From Roseivivax jejudonensis (GTDB lineage: Bacteria; Pseudomonadota; Alphaproteobacteria; Rhodobacterales; Rhodobacteraceae), in contig NZ_FWFK01000006.1 in the NCBI RefSeq assembly GCF_900172265.1, forward strand, positions 1 to 64,000: a DNA stretch of 64,000 bases, given 5' to 3'. Shown piece by piece: positions 42,755-60,833 of the stretch. Made by a program: the position numbers and the translations under genes. Below the pieces are notes generated by a model. That model was not told where the DNA came from. It ran no database searches and saw nothing but the letters and a program-made list of their open reading frames with translations. Every line of letters starts with the position of its first letter. Position 1 is the first letter of the stretch.

Positions 42755-43945
42755 ATGAGCGGAATCAGGGGCTCCGAGCGCCTGCAGAACTACTCGGCGA
42801 AGCTGTCGCGGAGCCTACAGGAACACTCCGAAAAGATCTTCCCCCCGGATGCGGAGAAGACCCTTCGGCCGTTTTCGATGCGCGAGGTCGCGGACTTTCT
42901 CGGCGTGAACCAGAACACGTTCCGTCACTACGTGAAGTCGATGTCCGACAGGATCCCGACCGGCACGCTGGTGAACGGAAACAGGCGCTATTTCACCGCC
43001 GACGAGATGAATCGCATCCGCGAGGTGCTGTGGGCCGATCGCAAGATCGGGCTGCGGGAGTACCGCCGGCGCCAGCCGGGCGAGCCGATGAAGGCGATCA
43101 CGGTGGTCAACCTCAAGGGCGGGGTGTCCAAGACCTCGACCACCACGCATCTGGGGCAGATCCTGTCGCTTCGGGGCTACCGGGTGCTGATGGTCGACCT
43201 CGACGCGCAGGCGTCGATGACCAACCTGTTCGGGCTGACGCCCGAGGCGGACCCCGACATGGTGACCGTCTACGACGTGATCCGCTATCGCGACCCGGTG
43301 CCGATCCGGCAGGCGATCCGCGGCACCTATTTCCCGAATATCGACATCCTGCCGGTGTCGATGGACATCATCGAGTTCGAGTACGAGACGGCGCTGTCGT
43401 TCCGCGACCCCGACACGGTGGTGCCTTTCCACGGGCGCATCGCGCAGGCGCTGTCCGAGGTGGAGGACGATTACGACCTCGTGCTGTTCGACACGCCGCC
43501 GCAGATGTCGTTCGCGGTGATCGCGGCGCTGTTCGCGTCGAACGGCATGGTGATCCCGCTCACGGCCTCGATGCTCGACGTGATGAGCCTTGCCAGCTTC
43601 CTGAACATGGCGGGCGACCTGATGGAGATCGTCGAGAACCAGGCGGCGGACAAGACCTTTGATTTCGTTCGGTTCCTGATCACGCGGTTCGAGGCGACGG
43701 ACCAGCCGCAGATCCAGGTGGCGTCGTACCTGCGCACGGTGCTGGGCGAGAGCGTGATGAGCGCGGAATTCGTGAAATCCACGGCGATCGGCGACGCGGC
43801 CAACACCAAGCAGCCGGTGTTCGAGGTGGAGCCGCGCGAGATGAACCGGCGCACCTACGACCGGGTGACCGAATCGATCGGGCGCATCGCCGACGAGGTG
43901 GAAGCCGATCTCTTCCAGGCATGGGGGCGGACCGATGGCGCGTAA
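42755..43945 (+). CDS. repA: RepA: plasmid partition ATPase (ParA family)
   Basis: 396 residues, typical RepA of repABC replicons. An N-terminal winged-helix DNA-binding region (about 45-105, with MREVADFLGVNQNTFRHYVKS) precedes the ParA domain, whose deviant Walker A is LKGGVSKTSTTTHLG, followed by MVDLDAQASMTNLFGL and LVLFDTPPQMSF. It drives segregation with RepB and represses the operon. The start follows a GACGAGGC leader. A repB ATG lies 11 bases before its stop. Confidence 0.97.
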   Translation: MSGIRGSERLQNYSAKLSRSLQEHSEKIFPPDAEKTLRPFSMREVADFLGVNQNTFRHYVKSMSDRIPTGTLVNGNRRYFTADEMNRIREVLWADRKIGLREYRRRQPGEPMKAITVVNLKGGVSKTSTTTHLGQILSLRGYRVLMVDLDAQASMTNLFGLTPEADPDMVTVYDVIRYRDPVPIRQAIRGTYFPNIDILPVSMDIIEFEYETALSFRDPDTVVPFHGRIAQALSEVEDDYDLVLFDTPPQMSFAVIAALFASNGMVIPLTASMLDVMSLASFLNMAGDLMEIVENQAADKTFDFVRFLITRFEATDQPQIQVASYLRTVLGESVMSAEFVKSTAIGDAANTKQPVFEVEPREMNRRTYDRVTESIGRIADEVEADLFQAWGRTDGA

Positions 43946-44918
43946 GAACGTGTTCGGCGACGCGCTGCGCGGCGCGATGAAGGAAAGCGACCGGGGCGCG
44001 GCCCCCTCCCCTGCCCCGCGGGCGGCGGAGACGCCCCCGGCCCCCGCTCCGGCGGCCGAGGCGGGCGCGGGCAAGCGCACCGCGCCCAACGTGCGGTATT
44101 TCAGCCAGTCCTTCGAGGAGCAGATGAAGCGCTCGCTCCAGGACATCGACCCGGCGCGGATCGACATGTCGCGGTTCTCGGACCGGATCGACCCGGGCGA
44201 GGACCTGAGCGAGCTGAAGGAATCGATCCGGCGCAACGGCCAGCAGGTGCCTGTCCTGGTGCGGCGCAAGGCCGACGACCGGTTCGAGGTGATCTACGGC
44301 CGGCGCCGGATCCTCGCCTGCCGGGCGCTGGAGCGTCCGGTGCGCGGCATGGTGGTCGAGCTCGACGACGAGGACGCGCTGATCGCGCAGGGCCTCGAGA
44401 ACGCGGCGCGGCTCGAGACCTCGTATATCGAGCGGGCGCTGTTCGTGAAGCAGATCCTCGATGCCGGGTTCACCGCGGTGCTGGTGGAAAAGGCGATCGG
44501 CGTGGAGGAGACGCAGGTCTACCGCATGCGCGGGATCGCCCGCGACATCCCCGCCGAGGTCATCGCGGCGGTGGGCGCGGCGCACGGCGTCGGCCGGCGG
44601 CCGTGGGAGGAACTGCGCAAGATCCTGACCGCCGAGGGTGCGCCCAAGGCCACCAAGGTGGTCAAGACGGTGCGGACCGACCTGAGCTCGGGCGACCGGC
44701 TGAAGGCGCTGATCGCGGACCTGAAATCGGCCGGAAAACCGGCGCGGACCCAGCCCCGCGGCGAACGCGAGATCGCCGGCGGCAAGCTGCGGGCGCGGCG
44801 CGCGGGCAAGGCGCTGACGGTGCGGCCGGGCGACGGGGTGCCGGAGGCGTTCCTCGATCACCTGGAGACCGCCCTGCCCGACCTCCTGCAGGAGTGGGAG
44901 CAGAAGAATGGCGCGTAA
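43935..44918 (+). CDS. repB: RepB: plasmid partition protein (ParB family)
   Basis: 327 residues, overlapping repA by 11 bases. A nuclease-like ParB domain is recognisable at QQVPVLVRRKADDRFEVIYGRRRILACRAL, with a helix-turn-helix region downstream (FTAVLVEKAIGVEETQVYRMRGIARDIP). RepB binds parS palindromes and loads RepA. The nearby CTGCCCGCGGGCAG repeats are candidate targets. Confidence 0.96.
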   Translation: MARKNVFGDALRGAMKESDRGAAPSPAPRAAETPPAPAPAAEAGAGKRTAPNVRYFSQSFEEQMKRSLQDIDPARIDMSRFSDRIDPGEDLSELKESIRRNGQQVPVLVRRKADDRFEVIYGRRRILACRALERPVRGMVVELDDEDALIAQGLENAARLETSYIERALFVKQILDAGFTAVLVEKAIGVEETQVYRMRGIARDIPAEVIAAVGAAHGVGRRPWEELRKILTAEGAPKATKVVKTVRTDLSSGDRLKALIADLKSAGKPARTQPRGEREIAGGKLRARRAGKALTVRPGDGVPEAFLDHLETALPDLLQEWEQKNGA

Positions 44919-44958
44919 GCCATTGATTTATAACGATTTTCGCCCCGGACCGGCGAAA

Positions 44959-44978
44959 ACCCTGCCCGCGGGCAGGGT
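44959..44978. repeat. parS-like palindrome 1 (between repB and repC)
   Basis: A perfect 20-bp palindrome with core CTGCCCGCGGGCAG lies 40 bp after the repB stop. Four more copies of the core occur at 46366, 46398, 47221 and 47253. I found no other copy in the window by eye. A GC hairpin terminator is an alternative for this single copy, but recurrence favours a partition site. Confidence 0.72.
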
Positions 44979-45059
44979 CCGACGGGCCGGACGGAGGAAG
45001 CGCCCGTAACATCGGGCTCGAGCAGTCGATCAACCAGAACGAGGGAGCAGACAGCAGGC

Positions 45060-45096
45060 AAAAAGAAACCCCCCGAAACCGAAGTTCCGAAGGGTT
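45060..45096 (-). terminator. ctRNA terminator
   Basis: On the minus strand a 12-bp stem (45085-45096 pairing with 45067-45078, some G-U pairs) plus a CTTCGG loop closes as a UUCG-type tetraloop, then TTCTTTTT follows (45066-45060 side). A textbook intrinsic terminator. Confidence 0.88.
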
Positions 45097-45111
45097 CCAT
45101 CTCGTTTAGCC
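45060..45111 (-). ncRNA. Antisense ctRNA (incompatibility RNA) of the repABC module
   Basis: repABC plasmids encode a 50-60 nt countertranscript in the repB-repC gap that blocks repC expression. Here the minus strand has a promoter (next entry) and a strong intrinsic terminator 50 bases on, giving an RNA of about 52 nt; the exact start is estimated from the -10 position. The same sequence in the repC leader forms the target structure. Confidence 0.75.
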
Positions 45112-45117
45112 ACGTTC

Positions 45118-45146
45118 TGGATACCCGACATACGAGTCGCGTGCAA
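45118..45146 (-). promoter_or_regulatory. ctRNA promoter
   Basis: On the minus strand TTGCAC (complement of 45141-45146) and TATCCA (complement of 45118-45123) are separated by exactly 17 bp, a good sigma-70-type promoter. Transcription would begin near 45111, just upstream of the terminator hairpin. Confidence 0.72.
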
Positions 45147-45189
45147 CATCGTTTTCGGTGAACGGTCCCCTTTTGCCGTCTGAAATGGC

Positions 45190-46347
45190 ATGAACCACAC
45201 CATCTCCGCGGCGCCGCGCGCCGGGGCACGGGAAAGCTGTGTCCGAACCAGCCCCGCAGGCTTTCGCCCAGTCCTGCGCCGGACCCTGTTGTGCGCGATC
45301 CGGGCGACGCGCACCGATTTCGGCCTGTCCACGGGCGACGTGTTGGTGCTCGACACGCTGTTGAGCTTCCTGCCCTGCCGCGAACGCGGGACGGAGCGGC
45401 CGATCACGCCCGACACGATGCTGACGATCTACGCCGCGAACGCGACGATCTGCGCGCGGGCCAACGGCATGGACGAGCGCGTCCTGCGCCGGCACATCGC
45501 GCGGCTGGTGGCGGCGGGGCTTCTCGCGCGGCGCGACAGCGCGACGCGCAAGCGGTTTCCGCTGCGCTCGGGCGGCCAGGTGCGGGCGGCCTACGGGCTC
45601 GACCTGACGCCGCTGCTGGAGCGGCACGCCGAGATCGCCGCGCTGGCCGAGACGCGGGCCGCGGAGGCCGAGGAAGCGCGCGCGGTCCGCGCCGAGGCGC
45701 TGGCGGTGCGAGCGGTCCTCCTGCGCGGGGCGGCGCGGCTGACCGCGGAGGCGCGCGATTTCGTCGAGACGGCGAAGACGGTCCTGCGGCGCACGACGCT
45801 GAGCCTCGGGGACATGCGCGCGATCCTCGCGCGGCTGATGCGGCTGGCCCGCGGGCAGGCGGTGATGGCCGAGGCGCCGGCCCCGTCTCCGACGGCGGCC
45901 CCCTGCCCCGCTGCGGATGTCGCCGACCCGCAACCGGAGGCGCGGACCGGCGCCGAGGACGGTTCGGAGACGGACGCGGAGTCCGCCGCGAACGGGGAAA
46001 TTGTCCGGCCCGTAGAGTCCCCAAAAACAGAAACAGATATGGCGCACCTGCCCGACCGGGCGGCGCTGGCGGCGACCTGGGCCACCTGCCCGGCCCTCTC
46101 GGAATACGTGCCGCATCCGCCCGACCGGCCCGCGGAGCTGATGCAGTCGGTCTACATGATGGGATCATTTGTCGGTGTGAAGGAACGCCCGTTGGCCGAG
46201 GCCATCGCGACGCTCGGATGGCTGCGCGTGGTGACGGCGCTGGATTACCTCATCGCCAACGCGACGCGGATCGCGCGACCTGACCGGTATCTCGGGCGGA
46301 TGGTGACGGAGTTCCGGGCCGGGAAGCCGGTGGCGGGGATCCGGTGA
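45190..46347 (+). CDS. repC: RepC: plasmid replication initiator
   Basis: 385 residues. The N-terminal domain (VLVLDTLLSFLP, TICARANGMDERVLRRHIARLVAAGLLARRDSATRKRFPLR) is the RepC winged-helix initiator region; the C-terminal third ends with TALDYLIANATRIARPDRYLGRM. RepC is the sole initiator and its origin normally lies within its own gene. Expression is set by the ctRNA pairing in the leader at 45067-45096. The ATG is preceded by a weak ribosome site, usual for RepC control. Confidence 0.95.
   Translation: MNHTISAAPRAGARESCVRTSPAGFRPVLRRTLLCAIRATRTDFGLSTGDVLVLDTLLSFLPCRERGTERPITPDTMLTIYAANATICARANGMDERVLRRHIARLVAAGLLARRDSATRKRFPLRSGGQVRAAYGLDLTPLLERHAEIAALAETRAAEAEEARAVRAEALAVRAVLLRGAARLTAEARDFVETAKTVLRRTTLSLGDMRAILARLMRLARGQAVMAEAPAPSPTAAPCPAADVADPQPEARTGAEDGSETDAESAANGEIVRPVESPKTETDMAHLPDRAALAATWATCPALSEYVPHPPDRPAELMQSVYMMGSFVGVKERPLAEAIATLGWLRVVTALDYLIANATRIARPDRYLGRMVTEFRAGKPVAGIR
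45996..46045. other. AT-rich patch in repC (possible oriV)
   Basis: A locally AT-rich stretch (AAAAACAGAAACAGATAT at 46023-46040 and GGGGAAATTGTCC just upstream) interrupts the GC-rich repC gene and encodes a linker of the protein. In repABC replicons oriV is usually an AT-rich region in the middle of repC. Position fits; no iterons seen. Confidence 0.4.
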
Positions 46348-46363
46348 CGGGGCCCGGACCCGA

Positions 46364-46412
46364 GGCTGCCCGCGGGCAGCCGGCGGACCGATGCGGCCTG
46401 CCCGCGGGCAGG
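46364..46412. repeat. parS-like palindromes 2 and 3 (tandem pair after repC)
   Basis: Copy 2 is an 18-bp perfect palindrome (46364-46381) and copy 3 a 16-bp one (46397-46412). Both share the CTGCCCGCGGGCAG core. Their centres are exactly 32 bp apart, about three helical turns, so two RepB dimers could bind the same DNA face. Confidence 0.78.
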
Positions 46413-46507
46413 TGCGGGGTCGGAGTGTCGCGCGGGCTTGCCTTTTCGCGCGGACCGGCTCTCTTGCGATTAAGATGCGGTGGCGGGACAGAGAGGACGG
46501 CGCGGGG

Positions 46508-47218
46508 ATGAGCATGACCGATGCGAGCGGCGGCGAGAGCACGACGAGCCCGGATGCGCGGCTGTCGGAGCGGCCGGACTGGATCTACCTTCTGCGCGAG
46601 TTCGAGGCGCTGTTCCGCCATGGCTCGGCCGGGGGCAGCAAGGCGATCCGCACCCACCGCAAGGCGGTGCGCGACAGGCTGTCCGCGGTCATCGCGGCCG
46701 ATGGCGGATTCGTCGAGCAGACGCCGATCACCAAGCCGGTGACGGCGCATTTCAACCGCGCGCTGGACGTCGGCGAGCGCGGCGCGATGCAGGGCATGGC
46801 GCGGGCGCTGCGCCAGGTGCGCGACCGGCTGACATGGGAATACGGCTACGAGAAGGTCCCGCCGGCGCTGGCCCGGAAATACGCCTATTGCGAGATCCTC
46901 GGGCCGCGCGGTCCGATCCTCGCCGATCGCCTGATCCTGGGATTCGTGCTGTTCGCGCCGAACACGACCTATCCCCAGCACAGCCACAAGAGCATCGAGG
47001 AGAGCTACATCTCGATCTCGGGCGCGTGGTCGGAGAACAACGCGGCGGTCTACGCGCCGGGGTCGCTGATCCTGAACCGGCCGGGCGACGAGCACCGCAT
47101 CACCACCGGGGAGCTCGAGCCGTGCCTTCTGGCCTATGCCTGGGTCGGCACGCCCGAGGCGCTGACCGCGCCGGGGATGAAGCTGACGGCGCCGAAGCGC
47201 AAGCGCGCCGGGGCGTGA
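46508..47218 (+). CDS. dddL: DMSP lyase, DddL-type cupin
   Basis: 236 residues. DWIYLLREFEALFRH near the N-terminus and the C-terminal cupin with His158, His160, Glu165, Tyr167 and His196 (HxH-x4-ExY then ...H) match the DddL group of dimethylsulfoniopropionate lyases. It would cleave DMSP to dimethylsulfide and acrylate. A GAGAGGA site precedes the chosen ATG; 46514 is an alternative start. It sits alone between two parS-like pairs, on the replicon maintenance locus. No acrylate-utilisation gene is adjacent. Confidence 0.8.
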   Translation: MSMTDASGGESTTSPDARLSERPDWIYLLREFEALFRHGSAGGSKAIRTHRKAVRDRLSAVIAADGGFVEQTPITKPVTAHFNRALDVGERGAMQGMARALRQVRDRLTWEYGYEKVPPALARKYAYCEILGPRGPILADRLILGFVLFAPNTTYPQHSHKSIEESYISISGAWSENNAAVYAPGSLILNRPGDEHRITTGELEPCLLAYAWVGTPEALTAPGMKLTAPKRKRAGA

Positions 47219-47219
47219 T

Positions 47220-47267
47220 CCTGCCCGCGGGCAGGGCAGGGGACGGCGCGACCTGCCCGCGGGCAGG
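47220..47267. repeat. parS-like palindromes 4 and 5 (tandem pair after dddL)
   Basis: Two 16-bp perfect palindromes (47220-47235 and 47252-47267) with the CTGCCCGCGGGCAG core start two bases after the dddL stop. Centres are again exactly 32 bp apart, the same geometry as the pair at 46364-46412. Confidence 0.78.
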
Positions 47268-47305
47268 GTGGGGGCGTCAAGCGATCCGGCCGAGGGGTGG
47301 CTCGC

Positions 47306-47351
47306 GGGGGCGCTGCCCCCGCACCCCCGGAGTATTTGCGCCAAGAAGAAG
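47306..47351 (+). repeat. Intergenic repeat GGAGTATTT-N3-CCAAGAAGAAG, copy 1
   Basis: A 6-bp hairpin (GGGGGC-GCT-GCCCCC, 47306-47320) is followed by ACCCCCGGAGTATTT and CCAAGAAGAAG (47329-47351). Two more copies occur at 56695 (inverted) and 58577. It lies downstream of dddL in the 253-bp gap before the convergent CoA ligase; the rest of the gap is parS pair 2 and GC-rich filler. Confidence 0.8.
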
Positions 47352-47471
47352 AGGGGGCGTCGGGATCCGGGTCCGGGCGGGGTCGGGCGGCCGTGGAGGG
47401 CGCCGCCCTCGCGCACCGTCGGAGCGTCTGCGACTTGAAGACGGTGCGCGGGGCAGGGCAGGGGGGAGGGG

Positions 47472-49109
47472 TCAGTCCTTGAGGCGGAAGCGCTGGATCT
47501 TGCCGGTCTCGGTCTTGGGCAGGGCGTCGAGAAAGCGGATCGAGCGAGGATACTTGTAGGGCGCGATCGCGGCCTTCACGTGCTCCTGCAGGGCCGTCAC
47601 CAGCGCATCGTCGCCGGAATGGCCCTCGGCCAGGACGACATGGGCGGCGACGATGGCGCCGCGATCCTCGTCCGGCTGGCCCACGACGGCGCATTCGGCC
47701 ACGGCGGGATGCGACAGGAGCGCGGCTTCGACCTCGGGGCCGGCGATGTTGTAGCCCGAGGACACGATCATGTCGTCGTTGCGCGCGGCGAAATGCAGGT
47801 AGCCGTCCGCGTCCATGACGAAGGCGTCGCCCGTTATATTCCAGCCGTTGAATACGTAATCGGTCTGCCGGTCGTCCGCGAGGTAGCGGCAACCGGTCGG
47901 CCCGCGCACGGCGAGGCGGCCGACCTCGCCCCGGGGGCGTTCGGTGCCGTCCTCGCCGATCACCCGCGCCTCGTAGCCGGTGACGGGGCGGCCGGTGCAG
48001 GCGGGGCGGTGGTCGTCGAATCGGTTGGTGATGAAGATGTGCAGCATCTCGGTGGCGCCGATGCCGTCGAGCATGGGCTTGCCGGTCTTTTGCATCCATT
48101 CCTCGTAGACCGGGGCGGGCAGGGTTTCCCCGGCCGACACCGCGGCGCGGAGCGACGAGAGGTCGGCGCCCTCGTCCATCGCGCGCAGCATCACCCGGTA
48201 GGCGGTGGGTGCGGTGAAGGAGATCGTGGCGCGGAACTGCTCGATGATCTCGATCATGTTCGGGGGCGAGGCGTTCTCGAGCAGGGTCGCGGCCGCGCCG
48301 AAGCGCAGCGGAAACACCGCGAGGCCGCCGAGGCCGAAGGTGAAGGCGAGGGGCGGGGAGCCGACGAACACGTCGTCCGGCGTGACGTTCAGCACCTCCC
48401 GCGCGTAGCCGTCGGCGATGACGAGGATGTCGCGGTGAAAGTGCATCGTCGCCTTGGGCGCGCCCGTGGTGCCCGAGGTGAAGCCCAGGAGCGCCACGTC
48501 GTCGCGGCCGGTGGGCACGGCGTCGAAGGTCACCGGCTTTTCCAGCGCGAGGCGGTCGAGCTCGGCGTCGTGGTTCGAGGTGCCGTCGAAGCCGACCACC
48601 GTCTCGAGGAACGCGCTCGACTTCGCGCAGGTGGTCATCTCGTCCATCAGGCGGGTGTCGCAGAGCGCGAAGGCGATTTCCGCTTTGTCGACGATCTTGG
48701 CCAGTTCGCCGGCGCGCAGCAGCGGCATGGTGTTGACGACGACGGCGCCGGCCTTGGTCGCGGCGAGCCACGCGGCGACCATCGCGGGGTTGTTGGCCGA
48801 GCGGATGAGCACGCGGTTGCCGGGCTTCACGCCGAGGTCGGTGACCATCGCGTGGGCCAGCCGGTTGGTCCAGTCGGCGAGCTCCTTGTAGGTGCGGCGG
48901 CGGCCGTTGCCGATCAGCGCGACGCGGTCGCCGTGGCCCCGCTCGACCATCGCGTCGGTCAGTTCGACGCCGATGTTGAGCCGCTCGGGGTAGTCGAACC
49001 CGTCCAGCAGGAAATCCGGCCACTGCTCCGGCGGCGGAAGGTTGTCGCGGGTGAAGGTGTCGACATGGGCGGAGGGGCCCAGAACGTCGTGCACGGATCT
49101 GTCCGTCAT
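47472..49109 (-). CDS. 2-aminobenzoate-CoA ligase-like acyl-CoA synthetase (AMP-binding)
   Basis: 545 residues from ATG at 49109 behind AGGGAGCTCACCC. The AMP-binding motif is GFTSGTTGAPKATMHF, then YDxWxxTGD is replaced by NGWNITGDAFVM, and PKTETGKIQRF carries the catalytic lysine. The N-terminal SAHVDTFTRDNLPPPEQWP is characteristic of the aminobenzoate/benzoate CoA-ligase group. It would activate anthranilate as its CoA ester. Operon neighbours upstream are an acyl-CoA dehydrogenase and enoyl-CoA hydratase; a conserved hydroxylase/reductase lies at 62610. Confidence 0.82.
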   Translation of the reverse strand: MTDRSVHDVLGPSAHVDTFTRDNLPPPEQWPDFLLDGFDYPERLNIGVELTDAMVERGHGDRVALIGNGRRRTYKELADWTNRLAHAMVTDLGVKPGNRVLIRSANNPAMVAAWLAATKAGAVVVNTMPLLRAGELAKIVDKAEIAFALCDTRLMDEMTTCAKSSAFLETVVGFDGTSNHDAELDRLALEKPVTFDAVPTGRDDVALLGFTSGTTGAPKATMHFHRDILVIADGYAREVLNVTPDDVFVGSPPLAFTFGLGGLAVFPLRFGAAATLLENASPPNMIEIIEQFRATISFTAPTAYRVMLRAMDEGADLSSLRAAVSAGETLPAPVYEEWMQKTGKPMLDGIGATEMLHIFITNRFDDHRPACTGRPVTGYEARVIGEDGTERPRGEVGRLAVRGPTGCRYLADDRQTDYVFNGWNITGDAFVMDADGYLHFAARNDDMIVSSGYNIAGPEVEAALLSHPAVAECAVVGQPDEDRGAIVAAHVVLAEGHSGDDALVTALQEHVKAAIAPYKYPRSIRFLDALPKTETGKIQRFRLKD

Positions 49110-49191
49110 GGGTGAGCTCCCTGTTGCCGGCGCGGGGGCCGGATATGGATCCCGGGCGGGTTCGGCCCGCCTCGGGTCGTCTCGGGCCGCG

Positions 49192-50355
49192 TCAGCCGGC
49201 CGCGGCGGCGGCGTCGAGCGTCTGGCGCGCGATGATGACCTTCTGCACGTCGGAGGCGCCTTCGTAGATGCGCAGCGCGCGGATCTCGCGGTAGAGGCGC
49301 TCCACCACCGCGCCCGAGCGCACGCCGTCGCCGCCGTGCAGCTGCACCGCCGCGTCGATGACCTTCTGCGCCTCGTCGGTGGCGTGGAGCTTGGCCATCG
49401 CGGCCTCGCGGCTGACGCGGGGGGCGCCCGAATCCTTGGCCCAGGCGGCGCGGTAGACCAGGAGCGCGCTGGCATCGACGCGCAGCGCCATGTCGGCGAT
49501 GTGACCCTGCACCAGCTGCAACTCGCTCAGCGGCTTGCCCTGGACCTCGCGCGCGGTGACGCGGGCGAGCGTTTCGTCGAGGGCGCGGCGGGCGAATCCG
49601 AGGCCGGCGGCGGCGACGGTGGTGCGGAACACGTCGAGCACCGACATGGCGATCTTGAAGCCCTGACCGGGCTGGCCGAGCAGGGCCGATTTCGGCAGCC
49701 GCGCGCCGTCGAAGCGCAACGTGGCGAGCGGGTGGGGGGCGATGGTGTCGAGCCGCTCGGCGATCGACAGCCCGGGCGTGTCGGCGGGTACCACGAAGGC
49801 GGAGAGCCCCCTGGCGCCGGCGCCTTCGCCGGTGCGGGCGAAGAGCGTGTAGACATCGGCGATGCCGCCGTTCGAGATCCACGTCTTTTCGCCGTCGAGC
49901 ACCCAGGCGTCGCCGTCGTCGGTCGCCGTCATGGTGGAATTGGCGACGTCCGAGCCCGAGCGCGGCTCGGTCAGCGCGAAGGCCGAGATCGCCTTGCCCG
50001 CGCGGGTCAGCGGCAGCCACTCGGCCTGCTGGTCGGGCGTGCCGAAGAGCGACAGCGCGCCGGTGCCGAGGCCCTGCATGGCGAAGGCGAAGTCCATCAG
50101 CCCGTCGTGGCGGGCGAGCGTTTCGCGGCTGAGGCAGAGCGCGCGCACGTCGAGCGGGCGGGGATCGGCCGGGTCGGCCGCCGTCGCCTCGAGCCAGCCG
50201 TCGGCGCCGAGCCGCGCGACGAGATCGCGGCAGGTGGCGTCGGTGTCGTCGTGGTCGATCGGGCCGATTCCGGCCGCCCAGGCGTCGAGCAGGCGGGCGC
50301 GGTCGCGGTGGCGATCCTCCAGAAACGGCCAGTCGAGATAGGAGCGGTCGGGCAT
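49192..50355 (-). CDS. Acyl-CoA dehydrogenase
   Basis: 387 residues. [15 protein letters not shown] (flavin site), [24 protein letters not shown] and the C-terminal [17 protein letters not shown] are family hallmarks; the catalytic base of the usual Glu-containing YEGTxxIQ segment is the glutamate in YEGASDV. One-base overlap with the enoyl-CoA hydratase (TGATG). An oxidation step of the CoA-bound ring-derived intermediate is inferred. Confidence 0.92.
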
Positions 50356-51155
50356 CAATCCCCCTCGAAGACGGGCTTTTCCCTGGCCACGAAGGCCTCG
50401 TAGGCGCGGGTGAAGTCGGCGGTCTGCATGCAGATCGCCTGGGCCTGCGCCTCGGCCTCGATGGCCTGCTCGAGCGACATGGACCATTCCTGGTTGAGCA
50501 TGGTCTTGGTCATCATGTGCCCGAAATTGGGGCCCGCGGCGATGCGCGCGGCCATGTCCTGCGCCGTCTCCTCGAGCGCGTCGCGGTCGACGACGCGGTT
50601 CCAGAATCCCCAGGCGGCGCCTTCCTCGGCGTTCATCGCGCGGCCGGTATAGAGAAGCTCGGCGGCGCGGCCCTGGCCGATTATGCGGGGCAGCATGGCG
50701 CAGGCGCCCATGTCGCAGCCGGCGAGGCCGACGCGGGTGAACAGGAACGCGGTCTTGGCGTCGTGGCTGGCGACGCGCAGGTCGGAGGCCATCGCGACGA
50801 TGGCGCCGGCGCCGACGCAGACGCCGTCGACGGCGGCGACGACGGGCGTCTGGCAGCCGATCATCGCCTTCACCAGATCGCCGGTCATGCGGGTGAAGGC
50901 CAGAAGCTCCTTCATCGACATCCGGGTCAGCGGGCCGATGATGTCGTGCACGTCGCCGCCCGAGCAGAAATTGCCGCCGTTCGAGCCGAACACGACGGCC
51001 TTGACGTCGTCGCGGTAGGGCAGGGCGCGGAACCAGTCGCGCAGCTCGGCATAGCTGTCGAAGGTCAGCGGGTTCTTGCGGTCGGGCCGGTCGAGGCGGA
51101 GCGTCGCGACGCCGTCCGCGATGTCGCAGCGGAAATGCACCGGATCGTCGCTCAT
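50355..51155 (-). CDS. Enoyl-CoA hydratase/isomerase (crotonase family)
   Basis: 266 residues. The oxyanion-hole blocks [14 protein letters not shown] and [21 protein letters not shown] are clear, and [19 protein letters not shown]-like [16 protein letters not shown] follows. The ATG overlaps the MarR stop region by four bases. Hydration, isomerisation or hydrolytic ring opening are all possible in this family; its place in an aromatic-CoA operon suggests the last. Confidence 0.9.
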
Positions 51156-51679
51156 GCCCCGGTCTCCCTCGGCTGGTCGTCGGTGTCGGCGTCGGCGCGG
51201 GTCACCGCGTCGAAGCGTTCGGACAGGGTGTCGGCCTCGTCCGGGCCGAAGCCGGACAGAAGCTCGGCGATCCAGGCCTCGTGCGCGGCGGCCTGGCGGG
51301 CGAACTCCTCCTGCCCGCGCTTGGTCAGGCGCACGAGCGAGGCGCGGCGGTCGCCGGGCACCTGCACGCGCACCACGTGCCCGTCCTCGGCGAGCCGGTC
51401 GACGATGCCGGTGACGTTGCCGTTGGAGACCCGCAGCACGCCCGACAGCGCGCTCATCTTCAGCCCGCCCTCGAACCGGGCGAGCGCGGCCATCACGTCG
51501 AACCGGGGCAGGGTGGTGTCGAATTCGCGGCGGAAGCGGTCGCGCAGTTCGGTCTCGACCCCGCGGGTGCACTTGAGCAATCTGAGCCAGAGCCGCAGGC
51601 GTTCCTTCGACCCCCCGTCGCCCGGCGCGGTGTCCGCGATTCGCGATCCGCGCCCGATTTCCGTCTCGCCGTAGGCCAC
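51152..51679 (-). CDS. MarR family transcriptional regulator of the aromatic-CoA operon
   Basis: 175 residues from the GTG at 51679; other starts are poorer. The winged helix covers about 65-125 ([33 protein letters not shown], then [12 protein letters not shown]). First gene of the minus-strand operon and divergent from the Liv-type ABC genes. The TTTCAAGC ... GCTTGAAA inverted repeat in the divergent gap is its probable operator. Confidence 0.88.
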
Positions 51680-51739
51680 CTGTCGCGCACTCCGTTCCGT
51701 GGTCGGTGTCGCGCAAAGGCTAGGCAGTCGCGGATTTTG

Positions 51740-51768
51740 TTTCAAGCAAAAAAGGTTTGAGCTTGAAA
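51740..51768. promoter_or_regulatory. Inverted repeat in the MarR/Liv divergent promoter
   Basis: TTTCAAGC (51740-51747) and GCTTGAAA (51761-51768) are perfect complements with centres 21 bp apart, two helical turns. The AT-rich centre could hold a promoter. The same TTCAAGC/GCTTGAA unit occurs upstream of kynA and of the peptide ABC importer. Confidence 0.7.
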
Positions 51769-51935
51769 TATTCGCCGGACCGGGCCACGATCGGGAAAAC
51801 AGACGGTCGTCCGACGCGCACCAGACCCGGAAAGGGCTTGCGCCGGCGAGGCGATCCCGCCCTCTAATGAGGGACGAGACCGCGGCACGCGCCCGACAGA
51901 GAGCGTGGCCGCCCAGATCCAACAGGGAGACGACA

Positions 51936-53132
51936 ATGCAGACCAAGACGACGATACTGGCGACGACCGCGCTGACCCTCGGGCTCGCCACAGGCGCCGC
52001 CGCGCAGGAGGTGCCGCCGGCGGCCGAGGACGACGTGCTGAAGATCGGCCTGATCTACACGCTGTCCGGCCCGGCCGCCGCGCTCGGGGAGCAGGCGCGC
52101 AACGGATTCATGCTCGCGGCGGAGCGGATGGGCGAGATCGGCGGGATGGAGACCGAGATCGTCGTGATCGACGACGAGCAGCGCCCCGACAAGGCCGCCG
52201 ACGACGCGCGCGAGCTGGTGCAGCGCGAAGAGGTCGACTTCGTGGTCGGTCCGATCTTCTCGAACATCCTGGTGGCGATCCACCAGCCGGTGACCGAGAC
52301 CGGCACGATCCTGATCTCGACAAATGCCGGCACCTCGAACTTCGCCGGGCCGGACTGCCACCCGAACTTCTTCGTCACCTCCTACCAGAACGACCAGAAC
52401 CACGAGGTGATGGGCGCCTATGCCGAGCAGCAGGGCTACCAGAACGTGTTCCTGATGGCGCCGAACTACCAGGCGGGCAAGGACAGCCTCGCGGGGTTCA
52501 AGCATTCCTACACCGGCGGCGTCGCGGGCGAGGTCTTCACCGAGCTCGGGCAGCTCGACTTCTCGTCCGAACTCGCGCAGATCGCCGCGTTCCAGCCCGA
52601 CGCGCTGTTCACCTTCATGCCGGGCGGCATGGGCGTGAACCTCGTCAAGCAGTACGACCAGGCGGGCCTGTCCTCGATCCCGTTCCTGTCGGCCTTCACC
52701 GTCGACGAGACGACGCTTCCGGCCACGCAGGACGCGGCCGTGGGTCTTCTGGGCGGCGCGAACTGGGCGCCGGACCTCGACAACGAGGCGAACGCGGAAT
52801 TCGTGTCGGCCTATATCGAGGAATACGGCCACGTGCCGGGCACCTACGCGATGCAGGCCTACGACGCGGCGCAGCTGATCAATTCGGCCGTCTCGAAGGT
52901 CGGCGGCGACCTGACCGACCGCGACGCCCTGCGCGCGGCGCTCAAGGAGGCCGATTTCGACAGCCCGCGCGGCGACTTCTCCTTCGGGGTGAACAACTAC
53001 CCGGTGCAGGACTTCTACCTCGTCGAGGCGGTCAAGCGCGAGGACGGCATGTACGGCACCTCGGCGCAGGAGAAGATCTTCGACGACTACGTCGATACCT
53101 ACGCCGAGCAGTGCCAGATGGGCGCGTCCTGA
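51936..53132 (+). CDS. Liv-type ABC substrate-binding protein
   Basis: 398 residues with a Sec signal (MQTKTTILATTALTLGLATGAAAQ). KIGLIYTLSGPAAALGEQARNGFMLA and the NFFVTSYQNDQNHE region show a periplasmic binding protein of the branched-chain amino acid/aromatic acid family. In aromatic-degradation clusters such systems carry benzoate-like acids. First gene of an operon with two permeases and two ATPases. Confidence 0.92.
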   Translation: MQTKTTILATTALTLGLATGAAAQEVPPAAEDDVLKIGLIYTLSGPAAALGEQARNGFMLAAERMGEIGGMETEIVVIDDEQRPDKAADDARELVQREEVDFVVGPIFSNILVAIHQPVTETGTILISTNAGTSNFAGPDCHPNFFVTSYQNDQNHEVMGAYAEQQGYQNVFLMAPNYQAGKDSLAGFKHSYTGGVAGEVFTELGQLDFSSELAQIAAFQPDALFTFMPGGMGVNLVKQYDQAGLSSIPFLSAFTVDETTLPATQDAAVGLLGGANWAPDLDNEANAEFVSAYIEEYGHVPGTYAMQAYDAAQLINSAVSKVGGDLTDRDALRAALKEADFDSPRGDFSFGVNNYPVQDFYLVEAVKREDGMYGTSAQEKIFDDYVDTYAEQCQMGAS

Positions 53133-53157
53133 CCGCCCGGGCGAGGGGGATCGAGCG

Positions 53158-54075
53158 ATGGCGAATCTCTTCGTGCTCCAGCTCCTGAACGGGGTGCAGC
53201 TCGGGGTTCTGCTGTTCCTGATCGCGGCCGGGCTGACGCTCGTCTTCGGGATCATGGACGTGGTCAACCTCGCCCACGGGGTGCTCTACATGGTGGGCGC
53301 GTATTTCGTGGCCACCTTCGCGGCGCTGACCGGCAGCTTCTGGTGGGGGCTCCTGCTGATGCTGCCGGCGGCGGTCGCGGTCGGCCTCATCCTCGAGGTC
53401 GTGGTGATCCGAAGGCTCTACGCGCGCTCGCATCTCGACCAGGTGCTGGCGACGTTCGGGCTGGTGATGATCGCCAACGAGACGGTCAAGATCGTCTGGG
53501 GCGTGTCGCCCCTGTCGGTGCCGATGCCCGAGATCCTGTCGGGATCGGTGCCGCTGATGGGCCCGCTGCAATACCCGGTCTACCGCATCGCGATCATCAT
53601 CGCGGGGCTCGCGGTGGCGGGCGGGCTCTACCTCGTCATCAACCACACGCGGATCGGCATGCTGCTGCGCGCCGGGGCGACCAACCGGATGATGGTCTCG
53701 GCGCTCGGCATCGACATCGGCAAGCTCTTCGCGATGGTCTTCACCCTGGGCGCGGTGCTCGCCTGCTTTGCCGGCGCGCTGGTGGCGCCGATCCTGTCGG
53801 TCGATACCGGCATGGGCGAGAGCGTGCTGATCCTGACCTTCGTGGTCGTCGTCATCGGCGGCATCGGCTCGATCAAGGGGGCGTTCCTCGGTGCGCTGCT
53901 CGTGGCGATCGTCGACACGCTCGGCGGCGTGTTCGGCCCGATCCTCCTGCGCGAGGTGCTCGACCCCTCGGCGGCGGGGCAGGCGGGGCGGATGCTGGCG
54001 CCGATGCTCGTCTACATCCTGATGGCGGCGATCCTGTTCGCCCGGCCCGCCGGGCTCTTCGGGGGGCGCGCCTGA
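53158..54075 (+). CDS. Liv-type ABC permease (LivH-like)
   Basis: 305 residues with about eight membrane segments. LLNGVQLGVLLFLIAAGLTLVFGIMDVVNLAHGVLYMVGAY and VGGIGSIKGAFLGALLVA-like VIGGIGSIKGAFLGALLVA are LivH hallmarks. The TGA overlaps the next ATG by one base. Confidence 0.93.
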   Translation: MANLFVLQLLNGVQLGVLLFLIAAGLTLVFGIMDVVNLAHGVLYMVGAYFVATFAALTGSFWWGLLLMLPAAVAVGLILEVVVIRRLYARSHLDQVLATFGLVMIANETVKIVWGVSPLSVPMPEILSGSVPLMGPLQYPVYRIAIIIAGLAVAGGLYLVINHTRIGMLLRAGATNRMMVSALGIDIGKLFAMVFTLGAVLACFAGALVAPILSVDTGMGESVLILTFVVVVIGGIGSIKGAFLGALLVAIVDTLGGVFGPILLREVLDPSAAGQAGRMLAPMLVYILMAAILFARPAGLFGGRA

Positions 54076-55066
54076 TGGCCGAGACCACCGCCCCCGCTGC
54101 CGCGCGGCCGGCCCGTGCCGCCGCGCTCGCGCCCCGGGTCAAGGCGGCGCTGGTTCTGTTCGTGCTCTTCGCGCTGGTGCCGCCGGTGGTGATCGCGCTG
54201 GACGATCCGTTCCTGATCCTGATCGCCACGCGCATCCTCGCCTACGCGATCGCGGCGATGGCGCTCGACCTGATCCTCGGCTACGGCGCGATGGTGTCGT
54301 TCGGCCACGCCGCCTATCTCGGCTTCGGCACCTACGCGGTGGCGATCCTGTCGAGCTACGGGGTGAGCGACCTCCTGCTGCAGATGCTCGGCGCGATCCT
54401 CGTCTCGGCGCTCTTCGCGCTGGTGACCGGGGCGATCTCGCTGCGCACGCGGGGGGTCTATTTCATCATGATCACGCTTGCCTTCGGGCAGATGGCGTTC
54501 TTCTTCTTCATCTCGCTCTCGGCCTATGGCGGCGACGACGGCTACGGACTGTCGCAGCGCTCCACGCTCTTCGGCAGCCGCGTTCTCGAAAACGACGTGA
54601 CGCTCTACTACGTCACGCTCGCGGTGCTGGTCGGGCTCTTCGCGCTCTGCCACCGGATTGTCGGATCGCGCTTCGGCCGGGTGCTGACCGGCATCCGCGA
54701 GAACCCGGTGCGGATGGAGGCGATCGGCTTCTCGCCGTTCCGCTACCAGCTCACCGCCTTCGTGATCTCGGGCTGCATGACCAGCGTGGCGGGCGTGCTC
54801 CTGGCCAACCAGGCGGAGTTCGTGTCGCCCGCCTTCATGTCCTGGCACCGCTCGGGCGAACTGATCGTGATGGTCGTGCTGGGCGGCATCGGCACGCTCA
54901 CCGGCGCCATCGGCGGCGCGGTGGCCGCGCTCCTGCTCGAGGAGGTGCTCGGCATGATGACCGAGCACTGGCGGCTCTGGTTCGGCGTCTTCCTCGTGCT
55001 GATGGTGCTCTTCAGCCCGCGCGGCATCACCGGGCTGGTGGCGCAGCTGCGGGGGAGGGACGGCGC

Positions 55067-55070
<4 letters not shown>
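54075..55070 (+). CDS. Liv-type ABC permease (LivM-like)
   Basis: 331 residues. GYGAMVSFGHAAYLGFGTYAVAIL and ENPVRMEAIGFSPFRYQLTAFVISGCMTSVAGVLLA are LivM hallmarks, with GGIGTLTGAIGGA later. An alanine/arginine-rich cytoplasmic N-terminus of about 25 residues precedes the first helix. Overlaps the ATPase start by four bases. Confidence 0.93.
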
Positions 55071-55822
<752 letters not shown>

Positions 55823-55979
55823 CCCGCCTCCGCCGCCGCCGCCTGCCACCGGCGCCCACGGCCGCGAACCGCCCCGCAGCGTCGCCGCGGCCCGAACACG
55901 CCGACCGGGGGCCCCACAGGGTCACGCCGCGCCGGGCCGCGGCCTCATGCCCGCCGCGCCAAGACGGGACACGCGCCCC

Positions 55980-56666
<687 letters not shown>

Positions 56667-56694
56667 CCGCCGCCCGCCCGCGCGCCCCGGCGCG

Positions 56695-56719
56695 CCTTCT
56701 TCTTGGCAGAAATACTCCC
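56695..56719 (-). repeat. Intergenic repeat GGAGTATTT-N3-CCAAGAAGAAG, copy 2 (inverted)
   Basis: On the minus strand the sequence reads GGGAGTATTT, three bases, CCAAGAAGAAGG. It lies in the 105-bp gap between the LivF-like and cupin genes, opposite in orientation to copies 1 and 3, and lacks the long GC hairpin of the other two. Confidence 0.75.
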
Positions 56720-56771
56720 GCCGGAGGCGCCCGGCCATCCCGCGCCCCGGCCCGATCGAAAGGACCGCCCC

Positions 56772-57227
56772 ATGACCATGCTGCCCGGCGTCACCAAGTC
56801 CCACGCGGGTGTCGACGACGTCACCTGGAACATCCTCGGCCAGACCTACGTGCCGAAACAGCATTCCGAGGCGTCGATGGCCTGGCACGCGACGCTGCCC
56901 AAGGGCACCTTCGTGCCGCCGCACATCCACCCCACGCAGGACGAGTTCATCTACGTGCTGGAGGGCCGGTTCGACCTGCTCTTGAACGGGGTCGAGGCCT
57001 ATGCCGAACCCGGCGACCTGATCCGGCTGCCGATGGGCATCCCGCACGGGATCTTCAACAAGACCGACACCACCATCAAGTGCCTGTTCTGGGTGGCGCC
57101 GTCGCGGCGTCTCTACGACCTGTTCTGGGCGCTGCACAATCTCGGGCCGGACGCCAACCCCGCCGACGTGGTCGCGGTGTCGGCCGAGCACGAGGTCGAT
57201 TTCCTGCCGCCGCCCGAGGAGGGCTGA
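56772..57227 (+). CDS. Cupin domain protein
   Basis: 151 residues, a single cupin barrel. PPHIHPTQDEFIYVLEGRFDLLLNG is cupin motif 1 (HxH-x4-E) and GIPHGIFNK motif 2, giving a three-His-one-Glu metal site. Such small cupins serve as dioxygenases, isomerases or ligand-binding proteins. It precedes the FAD monooxygenase by four bases, so the two are coupled. Substrate unknown. Confidence 0.85.
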   Translation: MTMLPGVTKSHAGVDDVTWNILGQTYVPKQHSEASMAWHATLPKGTFVPPHIHPTQDEFIYVLEGRFDLLLNGVEAYAEPGDLIRLPMGIPHGIFNKTDTTIKCLFWVAPSRRLYDLFWALHNLGPDANPADVVAVSAEHEVDFLPPPEEG

Positions 57228-57231
57228 GCCC

Positions 57232-58470
57232 ATGACCGTCCTGATCGCGGGCGCGGGGATCGGCGGGCTGACCACGGCCCTGATGCTGCACGCGCGCGGC
57301 GTGCCCTGCGTCCTCCACGAGGCCGCGCGCGAGGTGCGCGAGGTCGGCGTCGGCATCAACGTGCTGCCGCACGCGATCCGCGAGCTCTCCGCGCTGGGGC
57401 TCCTGCCGGCGCTCGACAAGGTCGGCGTGCGCACCCGGCGGCTCGCCTATCTCACCCGGCAGGGGCAGGAGGTCTGGTCCGAGCTGCGCGGCATGCATGC
57501 CGGCCACGAGGTGCCGCAATTCTCGATCCACCGCGGGCGCCTGCAAAAGGCGCTCCACGACGCGGTGATCGCGCGGCTCGGCCCCGACGCGGTGCGCACC
57601 GGCCGGCGCCTCGCGGGCTTCGTGCAGGACGAGGGCGGGGTCACCGCCCATTACACCGACGCCGTCGAGGGCGGCGCCGGCGAGACGCTGCGCGGGTCGG
57701 TCCTCGTGTGCGCCGACGGCATCCACTCCGCCGGGCGGCGGGTGTTCTATCCCGGCGAGGGGCCGCCCTCGTGGCAGGGCGTGGTGATGTGGCGCGGCGC
57801 CGCCGACTGGCCGGTCTGGCGGGACGGCGAGAGCATGGCGATCGGCGGCGGGCTCGGCGGCAAGGTCGTGCTCTACCCGATCGCGCCGCCCGCGGGAAAG
57901 ACGCAGCTGATGAACTGGGTGGTGAACGTGCGGATCAAGGATCCGGCCGTGTCCGTGCCGCCGCCCGACAGCTGGTCGCGGCAGGCGCCCTTGTCGAAGG
58001 TGCTGCCGCACGCGCTGCGCTTCTCTGTGCCGGGCATCGACATCGGCGCGCTCGTCCGCGCGACGCCGGCGATCTACGAGTACCCGATGGCCGACCGCGA
58101 CCCGCTGCCGCGCTGGACCTTCGGGCGGGTGACGCTGCTCGGCGACGCGGCGCACCCGATGTACCCGGTCGGCTCCAACGGCGCGAGCCAGGCGATCCTC
58201 GACGCGCGCTGCCTCGCCGACGCGCTCGCCCGGGCCGAACATCCCCGCGCCGCGCTCTGGGTCTACGAGAAGGAACGCCTGCCGCTCACCGCCGAGGTCG
58301 TGCGCACCAACCGCCGCGGCGGCCCCGAGCGGGTGATCGACGAGGTGGAGAAACTGGCGCCCGCCGGCTTCCGCGACATCGACGCCGTCCTGAGCCACGC
58401 CGACCGCAAGGCGATCGTCGGCGGCTACGCCGCGATGGCCGGGTTCTCGCAGGTCCGCAAGGCGGGGTAG
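57232..58470 (+). CDS. FAD-dependent aromatic monooxygenase (PHBH/PhzS fold)
   Basis: 412 residues. The NAD(P)/FAD loop is GAGIGGLTTALMLHARG, followed by CADGIHSAGRR (DG motif) and GRVTLLGDAAHPMYPVGSNGASQAILDA (GD motif), hallmarks of class A flavin monooxygenases; the sequence is closest in layout to PhzS-like and salicylate hydroxylase-like enzymes. It probably hydroxylates an aromatic or amino-aromatic acid in the surrounding pathway. Followed by a 413-bp gene-free stretch. Confidence 0.88.
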   Translation: MTVLIAGAGIGGLTTALMLHARGVPCVLHEAAREVREVGVGINVLPHAIRELSALGLLPALDKVGVRTRRLAYLTRQGQEVWSELRGMHAGHEVPQFSIHRGRLQKALHDAVIARLGPDAVRTGRRLAGFVQDEGGVTAHYTDAVEGGAGETLRGSVLVCADGIHSAGRRVFYPGEGPPSWQGVVMWRGAADWPVWRDGESMAIGGGLGGKVVLYPIAPPAGKTQLMNWVVNVRIKDPAVSVPPPDSWSRQAPLSKVLPHALRFSVPGIDIGALVRATPAIYEYPMADRDPLPRWTFGRVTLLGDAAHPMYPVGSNGASQAILDARCLADALARAEHPRAALWVYEKERLPLTAEVVRTNRRGGPERVIDEVEKLAPAGFRDIDAVLSHADRKAIVGGYAAMAGFSQVRKAG

Positions 58471-58883
58471 GGCGGTCGAGCCCCGGCGCGTGGGCCGGCG
58501 CAGGTCTTGCGCCCGGACGGCGCAGGGCCGGGACGGGCGGCCGAGCGCCGGAGTGGGGGCCAGCCCCCACACCCCCGGAGTATTTGAACCAAGAAGAAGG
58601 CGGGTCGGGCGCCGCGGTGTTCGGGGGGGCGTATCCGGGCAGGGCGGATCCGGGGTCGGGGGTGGCGGTGCCAATGGCCGACCTTCGGCCCTGGGGGCTG
58701 GCGCCTCGTCCGCGAAGGTCCGGGCGACGGGTCGGGCACTGGCCGCGGCGCGGTGTGCGATACCGGTGCGCGCCGGACGGCGTGGTGGGGTCCGGACCAG
58801 GGGGGGCCGGGTGCGGTGCCGGGGCGGCCCGGGCGGCCCTGGCTGTCTGGGGCGGCGGTTTCTGGTGGTGGCGGGGCGGCGTC
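58471..58883. other. 413-bp gene-free, G-rich spacer
   Basis: No convincing gene is visible between the monooxygenase and the convergent aminotransferase. It contains repeat copy 3 near its start and several G-runs on the plus strand, giving strong G/C skew. Possible remnants of other genes cannot be recognised. Confidence 0.6.
58553..58600 (+). repeat. Intergenic repeat GGAGTATTT-N3-CCAAGAAGAAG, copy 3
   Basis: A perfect 8-bp hairpin (GTGGGGGC-CA-GCCCCCAC, 58553-58570) is followed by ACCCCCGGAGTATTT, three bases and CCAAGAAGAAGG (58577-58600). Same layout as copy 1: hairpin then the AG-rich tail, just downstream of a gene. Confidence 0.82.
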
Positions 58884-60044
58884 TCAGAGAGCGTTGAGAA
58901 AGCGGCTCATGCGGGTCATCGCCGCGTCGAGCGTGTCGAGATCGGCGGCGCCGAAGCAGATGCGCAGGCGGCCCTCGCCCGGGGGGCCGTAGAAGCTGCC
59001 GGCCTCGACGGCGACGCCGGCCTCGTCCATCAGCCGTTCGGCGAAGCGGCGCGCGCTCAGCCCGGTGGCGGAGATGTCAGGCCAGGCGTAGATGGTGCCC
59101 TCGGGCGCGGGGCAGGTGATGCCGGGCATCTGGTTCAGCCGCGCGACCACGAGGTCGCGGCGCGCGCGATCGTCCGCGACCATCGCCGCGAGCACCTCGG
59201 GCGGGCCCTCGAGCGCGGCGAGCGCGCCGTACTGGATGAAGGTGTTGACGTGGGTGACCTCGGAGGTGGTGATCTTCATCAGCCCGGGCATCAGCGCCGC
59301 GTCGCAGGCGAGCCAGCCGAGCCGCCAGCCGTCCATCGCGTAGGCCTTGGTGAAGGCCGACATGGTGATCGTGCGCTCGCGCATGCCCGGCAGCGCGGCG
59401 ATCGGGACGTGCCGGGCGCCGTCGTAGACGATGCGGTCGTAGACCTCGTCGGAGAGCACCAGGAGGTCGTGTTCCACCGCGAGATCGGCCAGCACCGCAA
59501 GCTCGTCGCGGCTGTAGACGCGGCCCGTCGGGTTGCACGGATTGACCAGCGCGACGAGCTTCGTGCGCGGCGTGATGCGTGCCTCGATCAGGTCGCGGCG
59601 GATGGCGTAGCCGTCCGCCGCGTCGAGCGGGGCGAAGACCGGCGTGGCGCCGGCCATCTCGATCTTGCCGATGTGCTGGGGATAGTGCGGCGAGAGCAGG
59701 ATCGCCTCGTCGCCCGGATCGAGAAAGGCGGTGAAGGCGGCGTAGCTCGCCTGCGTCAGCCCGTTGGTGACCAGCACCTCGCCGGCGCCGTAGTCGAGCC
59801 CGTCGCCGGCCATGCGCGCGGCCAGCGCGGCGCGCAGCTCGGGCAGGCCCTGCAGGTCGGAATAGTGGACGTGGCCGGCGCGCAGCGCGGCGATCGTCGC
59901 CTCCTTGATGTGGGCCGGCGTGTCCTCGATCGGGCGGCCGAGCTCGAGATGGATCAGGTCGTCGCGGCCGCTGGCGAGGGCGCGGGCGACCATGCCGAAA
60001 TCCTTCGGCGAGGTGTCGGTGATGCGGCGGGCGAAGCGGGGCAT
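58884..60044 (-). CDS. Class I aminotransferase (PLP)
   Basis: 386 residues. LVNPCNPTGRVYSRDEL, VLSDEVYDRIVYDG and the PLP-lysine segment SAFTKAYAMDGWRLGW are clear. Aspartate or aromatic aminotransferase-like; the substrate cannot be read. First in the direction of transcription is an amino acid ABC permease: the gene starts one base after the permease stop, so it is co-transcribed with that importer. Distinct from the aminotransferase at 27510. Confidence 0.9.
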   Translation of the reverse strand: MPRFARRITDTSPKDFGMVARALASGRDDLIHLELGRPIEDTPAHIKEATIAALRAGHVHYSDLQGLPELRAALAARMAGDGLDYGAGEVLVTNGLTQASYAAFTAFLDPGDEAILLSPHYPQHIGKIEMAGATPVFAPLDAADGYAIRRDLIEARITPRTKLVALVNPCNPTGRVYSRDELAVLADLAVEHDLLVLSDEVYDRIVYDGARHVPIAALPGMRERTITMSAFTKAYAMDGWRLGWLACDAALMPGLMKITTSEVTHVNTFIQYGALAALEGPPEVLAAMVADDRARRDLVVARLNQMPGITCPAPEGTIYAWPDISATGLSARRFAERLMDEAGVAVEAGSFYGPPGEGRLRICFGAADLDTLDAAMTRMSRFLNAL

Positions 60045-60045
60045 G

Positions 60046-60711: not shown

Positions 60712-60788
60712 GCGGTGTCCGGGTCATGTGGGGCAGGCGGCGCGGCCCGGGACGGGCCGGCGCGATGTCGTCTCGGGGGTCCGGGGCC

Positions 60789-60826
60789 GGGCGGCGCGGG
60801 CCCCGGGGGGTGGGCCCGCGCCGCCC
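60789..60826 (-). other. Strong intra-operon hairpin between binding protein and permease
   Basis: A perfect 15-bp GC stem (60789-60803 with 60812-60826) and 8-base loop starts eight bases downstream of the binding-protein stop. No T-run. Such structures after binding-protein genes protect the upstream mRNA from 3-prime decay and so raise binding protein over permease. Confidence 0.65.
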
Positions 60827-60833
60827 CGCGCGG

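Follow-up and report, generated by a model that had tools for sequence, protein, structure and literature searches.

The repABC-dddL region of the window

The first 64,000 nucleotides of contig NZ_FWFK01000006.1 (C18) of the Roseivivax jejudonensis assembly GCF_900172265.1, in the following referred to as the window, contain the genes repA, repB and repC in this order on one strand, the arrangement of a repABC replication and partition locus. They are followed by dddL, which encodes a dimethylsulfoniopropionate (DMSP) lyase. Five exact copies of the 14-bp perfect palindrome CTGCCCGCGGGCAG are distributed over this region: one lies in the gap between repB and repC, two follow repC and two follow dddL (Table 1). 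The 16-bp form of the word reads CCTGCCCGCGGGCAGG and, in one case, GCTGCCCGCGGGCAGC. The initial annotation, made from the sequence of the window, had described five copies of a GC-rich palindrome around repC and dddL, and this description proved exact. For the copy between repB and repC it gave position 44959, where the 20-bp form begins; the 14-bp core of this copy begins at 44962.

Table 1 Palindromic sites, genes and other features of the repABC-dddL region, in window coordinates.
Feature	Coordinates	Strand	Description	Core, score or remark
repA	42755..43945	+	ParA-type partition ATPase	TIGR03453, 417.7 bits (cut-off 348.45)
repB	43935..44918	+	ParB-type protein, presumed binder of the palindromes	TIGR03454, 236.9 bits (cut-off 201.5); PF02195 and PF07506 above cut-off
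parS-like site 1	44959..44978		20-bp perfect palindrome ACCCTGCCCGCGGGCAGGGT, repB-repC gap	core 44962-44975
Terminator-like hairpin	45065..45098	-	repB-repC gap	15 pairs and a T-run
repC	45190..46347	+	replication initiator	PF03428, 116.3 bits (cut-off 24.4)
parS-like site 2	46364..46381		18-bp perfect palindrome, after repC	core 46366-46379
parS-like site 3	46397..46412		16-bp perfect palindrome, after repC	core 46398-46411; 32 bp from site 2
dddL	46508..47218	+	DMSP lyase, inside the array	PF16867, 159.5 bits (cut-off 27)
parS-like site 4	47220..47235		16-bp perfect palindrome	core 47221-47234; dddL stop codon 1 base upstream
parS-like site 5	47252..47267		16-bp perfect palindrome	core 47253-47266; 32 bp from site 4
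Benzoate-CoA-ligase-like gene	47472..49109	-	first gene beyond the array	TIGR02262, 370.5 bits (slightly under cut-off 375.25)

The palindrome is confined to the rep locus

All five exact copies lie inside repABC or within 1 kb of it. No further copy was found in the rest of the window, in agreement with the initial annotation, or in the rest of the 4,312,868-bp assembly; unrelated chromosomal loci are free of the word. A single 16-mer with one mismatch occurs on the contig of the array, at position 93099. When up to two mismatches were allowed, the 16-mer matched 73 times per strand in the assembly versus 61 times for the reversed control, and degenerate matches are therefore at about chance level. 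Dinucleotide shuffling of the window, repeated 200 times, never gave five copies: the commonest perfect 14-bp palindrome was present once in 141 of the shuffles, twice in 56 and three times in 3. As perfect palindromes near repB and repC that the rest of the genome lacks, the sites fit the 14-16 bp pattern of repABC parS sites.

Single copies of the word were searched for within the genus (9 genomes), close doublets in 394 genomes of the family, including that of R. jejudonensis. One other genome of the genus (G008) holds an exact single copy on its contig C33. This copy lies within unrelated open frames resembling, in our reading, a sugar-nucleotide or glycosyltransferase gene, the RepB relative of the same genome is encoded on contig C8, and we take the copy to be a chance occurrence. 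None of the 393 other genomes of the family has two copies of the word close together (8-38 bp between them, with C or G as the outermost base), and a search of IMG/VR contigs for the exact doublet gave no match.

The contig that begins with the window is 281,817 bp long, and its last 127 bases are identical to its first 127. Because of this exact overlap of its ends, the contig probably represents a closed circular plasmid of about 281.7 kb. By sequence, the solved structures nearest to its RepB are those of Spo0J, ParB and Noc proteins, so that the general ParB fold is to be expected. The chromosome-type parS word, TGTTTCACGTGAAACA, has two exact copies in the genome, both on contig C17 and within 4 kb of another ParB-like gene. 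One more copy with two mismatches lies on C17; within two mismatches, none was found on C18 or elsewhere in the genome beyond C17. Since TGTTTCACGTGAAACA was found only on C17, with its exact copies near a ParB-like gene there, the palindromes of the array are unlikely to serve the chromosome.

The five palindromes are very probably the parS (centromere) sites at which RepB, encoded beside them, binds this repABC plasmid of about 282 kb. The partition-site role, already proposed by the initial annotation, is well supported for these putative sites by their confinement to the rep locus, by the layout of related loci, by words that follow the RepB lineage and by the published placement of such sites (PMC9040568; here and below, this article as well as PMC5613091 and PMC3910702 are cited from excerpts). 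We infer that a RepB dimer would bind each palindrome, with one half-site per helix-turn-helix, and that RepB assembled on the sites would build the partition complex, whereupon, at cell division, the RepA ATPase would move the complexes apart. The site between repB and repC may in addition modulate repC or its antisense RNA. In this gap, the minus strand of 45055-45200 has a stable fold (z -3.47 versus shuffles), and the minus-strand hairpin at 45098-45065 is a candidate for the end of a repABC-type antisense RNA. A search of the gap for such an RNA gave no Rfam match up to E 1.

Related repABC loci carry recurring palindromes of their own

To compare the array with its relatives, we assembled 76 repABC loci, consisting of 60 regions from the same family, six from the same genus, nine plasmid records and the window. 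The 60 regions were drawn from among the matches listed and include most, not all, of the top ones. Each locus was scanned, with no motif given, for perfect palindromic 14-mers present two or more times in the stretch that runs from 1.5 kb upstream of repB to 4 kb beyond repC (or to the fetched end). Such a word was present in 56 of the 76 loci, the window included, and in none of 1520 shuffles of the same regions. Allowing one mismatch, 12 more loci were added by hand, which brings the labelled loci to 68; L119, which has two recurring words, was hand-labelled with TTGGCCATGGCCAA. The loci L044, L052, L065, L085, L097, L115, L118 and L120 remained unlabelled and are outside all counts on the 68. 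Many of the 76 loci are closely related, and 32 of the 68 labelled ones are left at less than 65% identity.

The word varies with the RepB lineage, examples being TTGACCGCGGTCAA, TTGGCCATGGCCAA, TTGACAGCTGTCAA, TCCACCGCGGTGGA, TGTACCGCGGTACA and TTGTCCGCGGACAA. The usual places are where repB ends or between repB and repC, and again where repC ends or just beyond; in some classes a site also falls within repC. At least five sites are present in five of the 68 labelled loci, the window being one of them. An unusually long parS-like array was seen in L101 (G271:C48), where the first kilobase or so after repB holds 10 exact copies of TTGACAGCTGTCAA; the fetched region of this locus gave no RepC match.

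Two of these relatives stand close to the window. The plasmid of Roseivivax marinus TCYB24 (L108) has sites in the repB-repC gap, at the repC end, after repC and beyond the next gene, and its DUF4186 gene (8511-8858) is bracketed by sites at 8417 and 8880 as dddL is in the window. It differs from the window in its word, TTGTCCGCGGACAA, which is present in two exact and three one-mismatch copies, in gaps of 90-463 bp after repC, and in having no 32-bp pair. The word nearest to that of the window, GTGCCCGCGGGCAC, was found in L073 (G099, contig C21) in four exact copies after repC and shares with it the 12-bp core TGCCCGCGGGCA. In this locus, however, RepB is only 38% identical, the outermost base pair of the word differs, the repB-repC gap is free of exact copies and a 32-bp pair is absent.

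The word follows RepA and RepB more closely than RepC

The three rep genes of the window do not share one set of nearest relatives. RepA (58%) and, by tblastn, RepB (46%) are nearest to the group with the word TTGACCGCGGTCAA, whereas RepC is nearest (51%) to that of Roseivivax marinus, with the word TTGTCCGCGGACAA. Judged by these kinships, the repABC module is a mosaic. In a RepB tree built without the helix columns, the window stands beside L050, a long branch of the TTGACCGCGGTCAA group, with a support of 83. None of the 2432 PLSDB plasmid records that match RepB reaches 60% identity with it.

Another reading is that the palindromes are iteron-like repeats of a replication origin bound by RepC. 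The sites do lie in a cluster about repC, and copies following this gene are frequent among the labelled loci. Sharing of the word, however, tracks RepA more closely than RepC: at RepB identities below 0.5, the area under the curve (AUC) is 0.974 for RepA (33/1973 pairs) and 0.86 for RepC (24/1846), and over all pairs it is 0.995 versus 0.955. The nearest RepC, that of R. marinus, goes with the different word TTGTCCGCGGACAA, which is common to L098 and L079, and the words of the four nearest RepC relatives differ except for one common to L099 and L078; RepC therefore does not set the word. Likewise, A2B2C1 hybrids carry the group-2 word (PMC5613091). After these comparisons we set the RepC reading aside as highly improbable.

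We give equally little credit to the palindromes being transcription terminators or RNA hairpins that end the repB, repC and dddL transcripts. All five sites do lie after stop codons, the fourth a single base past that of dddL, and the RNA of the three stretches that hold them is more stably folded than that of shuffled sequences (z -2.17, -2.25 and -3.16). Against this, a scan of 44800-47600 returned three terminator-like hits, none of them at the palindromes, and an identical word at five places and nowhere else in the genome is unlike terminators. The sites of relatives are moreover found inside the repB end (at -26) and inside repC. The terminator reading was likewise set aside.

Least credible of all, and also rejected, is a dispersed intergenic repeat or mobile-element end sitting here by chance, a reading suggested by a GC-rich dispersed repeat near the second pair, at 47313-47337, but at odds with the confinement of the palindrome to the rep locus, with pair flanks that are not clearly conserved (see below) and with the 55 other repABC loci that have recurring palindromes of their own. 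The intergenic word at 47313-47337 matches 23 places in the genome (its own copy included) at up to three mismatches, and its reversed control none.

RepB residues and the palindrome word

With RepB as the presumed reader of the word, its residues were compared with the bases of the half-site. Across the labelled loci (68), the identity of residue 222 goes with that of half-site base 6 without exception: arginine is paired with C in all 51 loci that have C there, and aspartate or proline with A in the other 17. The 32 representatives divide into 18 and 14, and the window has Arg222 and C at base 6. This match is suggestive of residue 222 reading base 6 of the half-site. At residue 196, in the recognition helix (window 44519-44521), RepB of the window has tyrosine where 73 of 76 loci have serine; the other exceptions are a tyrosine in L109, Salipiger abyssi pPABY1, which carries a different word, and one asparagine.

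Several observations weigh against the assignment of the palindromes as parS sites read by RepB. Residue 222 and base 6 each change only twice on the RepB tree built without the helix columns, which makes their match too thin for a test. Similarity over residues 193-210 predicted a shared word no better than the rest of RepB, with an AUC of 0.975 versus 0.991 over 2278 pairs and of 0.855 versus 0.927 over the 1973 distant pairs; in the most distant 1625 pairs these residues did better (0.698 versus 0.299), with only three pairs sharing a word. RepC scores 149.9 bits against NF040974, 0.1 bit under its cut-off of 150. No labelled palindrome is present in eight of the 76 repABC loci, two of which (L085 and L118) contain imperfect palindrome candidates. 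Finally, the window word departs at its outer bases from the consensus GTTNNNNGCNNNNAAC of PMC9040568: CCTGCCCGCGGGCAGG agrees with it at T3, the central GC and A14 and differs at G1, T2, A15 and C16. As to this last point, six of the 13 labelled words, in 14-mer form, differ from TTNNNNGCNNNNAA, the 14-mer form of the published consensus. The consensus is thus narrower than the family, and we therefore assigned the window word by layout and RepB kinship.

Spacing of the paired sites

Both pairs in the window have their centres exactly 32 bp apart, as the initial annotation had reported. Its further suggestion, that the repeat geometry points to cooperative RepB loading, found no support in the relatives as a general feature. 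The survey took in every pair of sites separated by no more than 80 bp in the 68 labelled loci, counting sites with at most one mismatch. In the other loci, the spacings were 35, 37, 40, 41/42 (one related group), 45, 46, 47, 55, 56, 58 and 63 bp. The 32 bp of the window is the shortest value, and no shared helical phase was found across the 68 loci.

The spacers of the two window pairs agree at 8 of 18 bases, and their flanks at 33 and 36 of 100 bases, where chance alone would give about 29 at a GC content of 70%. We also considered whether one 32-bp pair had recently been copied into the other, but no clear trace of such an event was seen in these comparisons.

Comparison with described parS sites

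The array itself is ordinary for the repABC plasmid family, and its layout, including a gene inside the array, is already published (PMC9040568). According to this work on pAMI4 of Paracoccus aminophilus and a survey of the order, Rhodobacterales repABC loci have one parS between repB and repC and as many as four on the downstream side of repC, as a rule within about 4 kb, and the arrays continue into later intergenic regions and genes; the window agrees with this picture. RepB of pAMI4 binds such sites in electrophoretic mobility shift assays, and the plasmid becomes less stable when its 3parS locus is deleted (PMC9040568).

Among roseobacter plasmids, compatibility groups 1 and 2 are marked by 14-nt palindromes, as in the window, which nearly always form doublets and are separated by 11-42 bp (PMC5613091). 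The window word shares the centre CCGCGG with the RepC-11 word TTTACCGCGGTAAA (PMC3910702) and is not equal to the words that the excerpted parts of these articles give for groups 1, 2 or RepC-11. A full-text literature search did not find the plain 14-letter word, with the limits that a print broken by slashes would escape it and that the nine-group list of Petersen 2009 was not covered. Because the doublet occurs in none of the 393 other genomes of the family and the plain string was not found in the literature, CTGCCCGCGGGCAG is probably a previously undescribed specificity tag of this plasmid lineage. It would add a distinct partition specificity to those of the Rhodobacterales repABC plasmids. 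A survey relying on the GTT...AAC consensus would miss the window word and a good part of the words of the family, and the set of words and RepB proteins, together with the match of residue 222 and base 6, offers a testable start for a RepB recognition code.

dddL and the downstream block

The position of dddL inside the array, noted in the initial annotation, was confirmed. As the arrays described in PMC9040568 extend into later genes, this position says nothing special about dddL; the array would have come to span it just as other Rhodobacterales plasmid arrays span downstream genes. A stronger reading can be formulated, in which RepB bound at both pairs covers or insulates the intervening 0.8 kb and thereby ties dddL expression to the partition complex, with the equal 32-bp spacing, retained despite differing spacers, as a selected loading geometry of the Tyr196 RepB. 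We consider this very improbable.

The ligase gene beyond the array faces dddL. From dddL on, a block in another genome of the genus (G005) is colinear with window positions 46553-57046, up to its fetched end, at 82-89% identity, interrupted once by a gap of about 1 kb on the G005 side. Window positions 47207-47475, which contain the second pair, are replaced there by about 30 bp without a palindrome. The ligase gene directly follows dddL in G005 (L129/L131), these 30 bp or so standing in the place of 267 bp in the window. No RepB match was found in G005. Since G005 keeps dddL and the block without the second pair, this pair would have been either gained in the window lineage or lost in G005. 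The idea of dddL as a cassette inserted into an existing array was dropped, given the colinear, palindrome-free dddL-ligase block of G005.

We also compared 32 dddL loci (the window, two from the same genus and 29 others) with flanks of up to 1.5 kb on each side. The dddL-ligase neighbourhood was present at close identity in the window and G005 only, with a distant match of 31% in L158. For dddL on pSC52_2 of Rhodobacteraceae bacterium SC52, no rep gene is annotated within 6 kb. A 43-kb contig of another genus (G161:C28; L042, L162, L163) carries a RepB relative (41%) and dddL (72%) about 22 kb apart, either by chance or as a recurring plasmid partnership.

Further downstream, at 49000-64000, the window contains a catabolic block with genes for salicylyl-CoA hydroxylase, acyl-CoA dehydrogenase and an ATP-binding cassette (ABC) transporter, named after the matching records. 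Plasmids of Roseivivax and Paroceanicella contain stretches that match the block at 78-81%, covering 63-68% of the query, and the gene order of the block is kept in G005 to at least position 57046.

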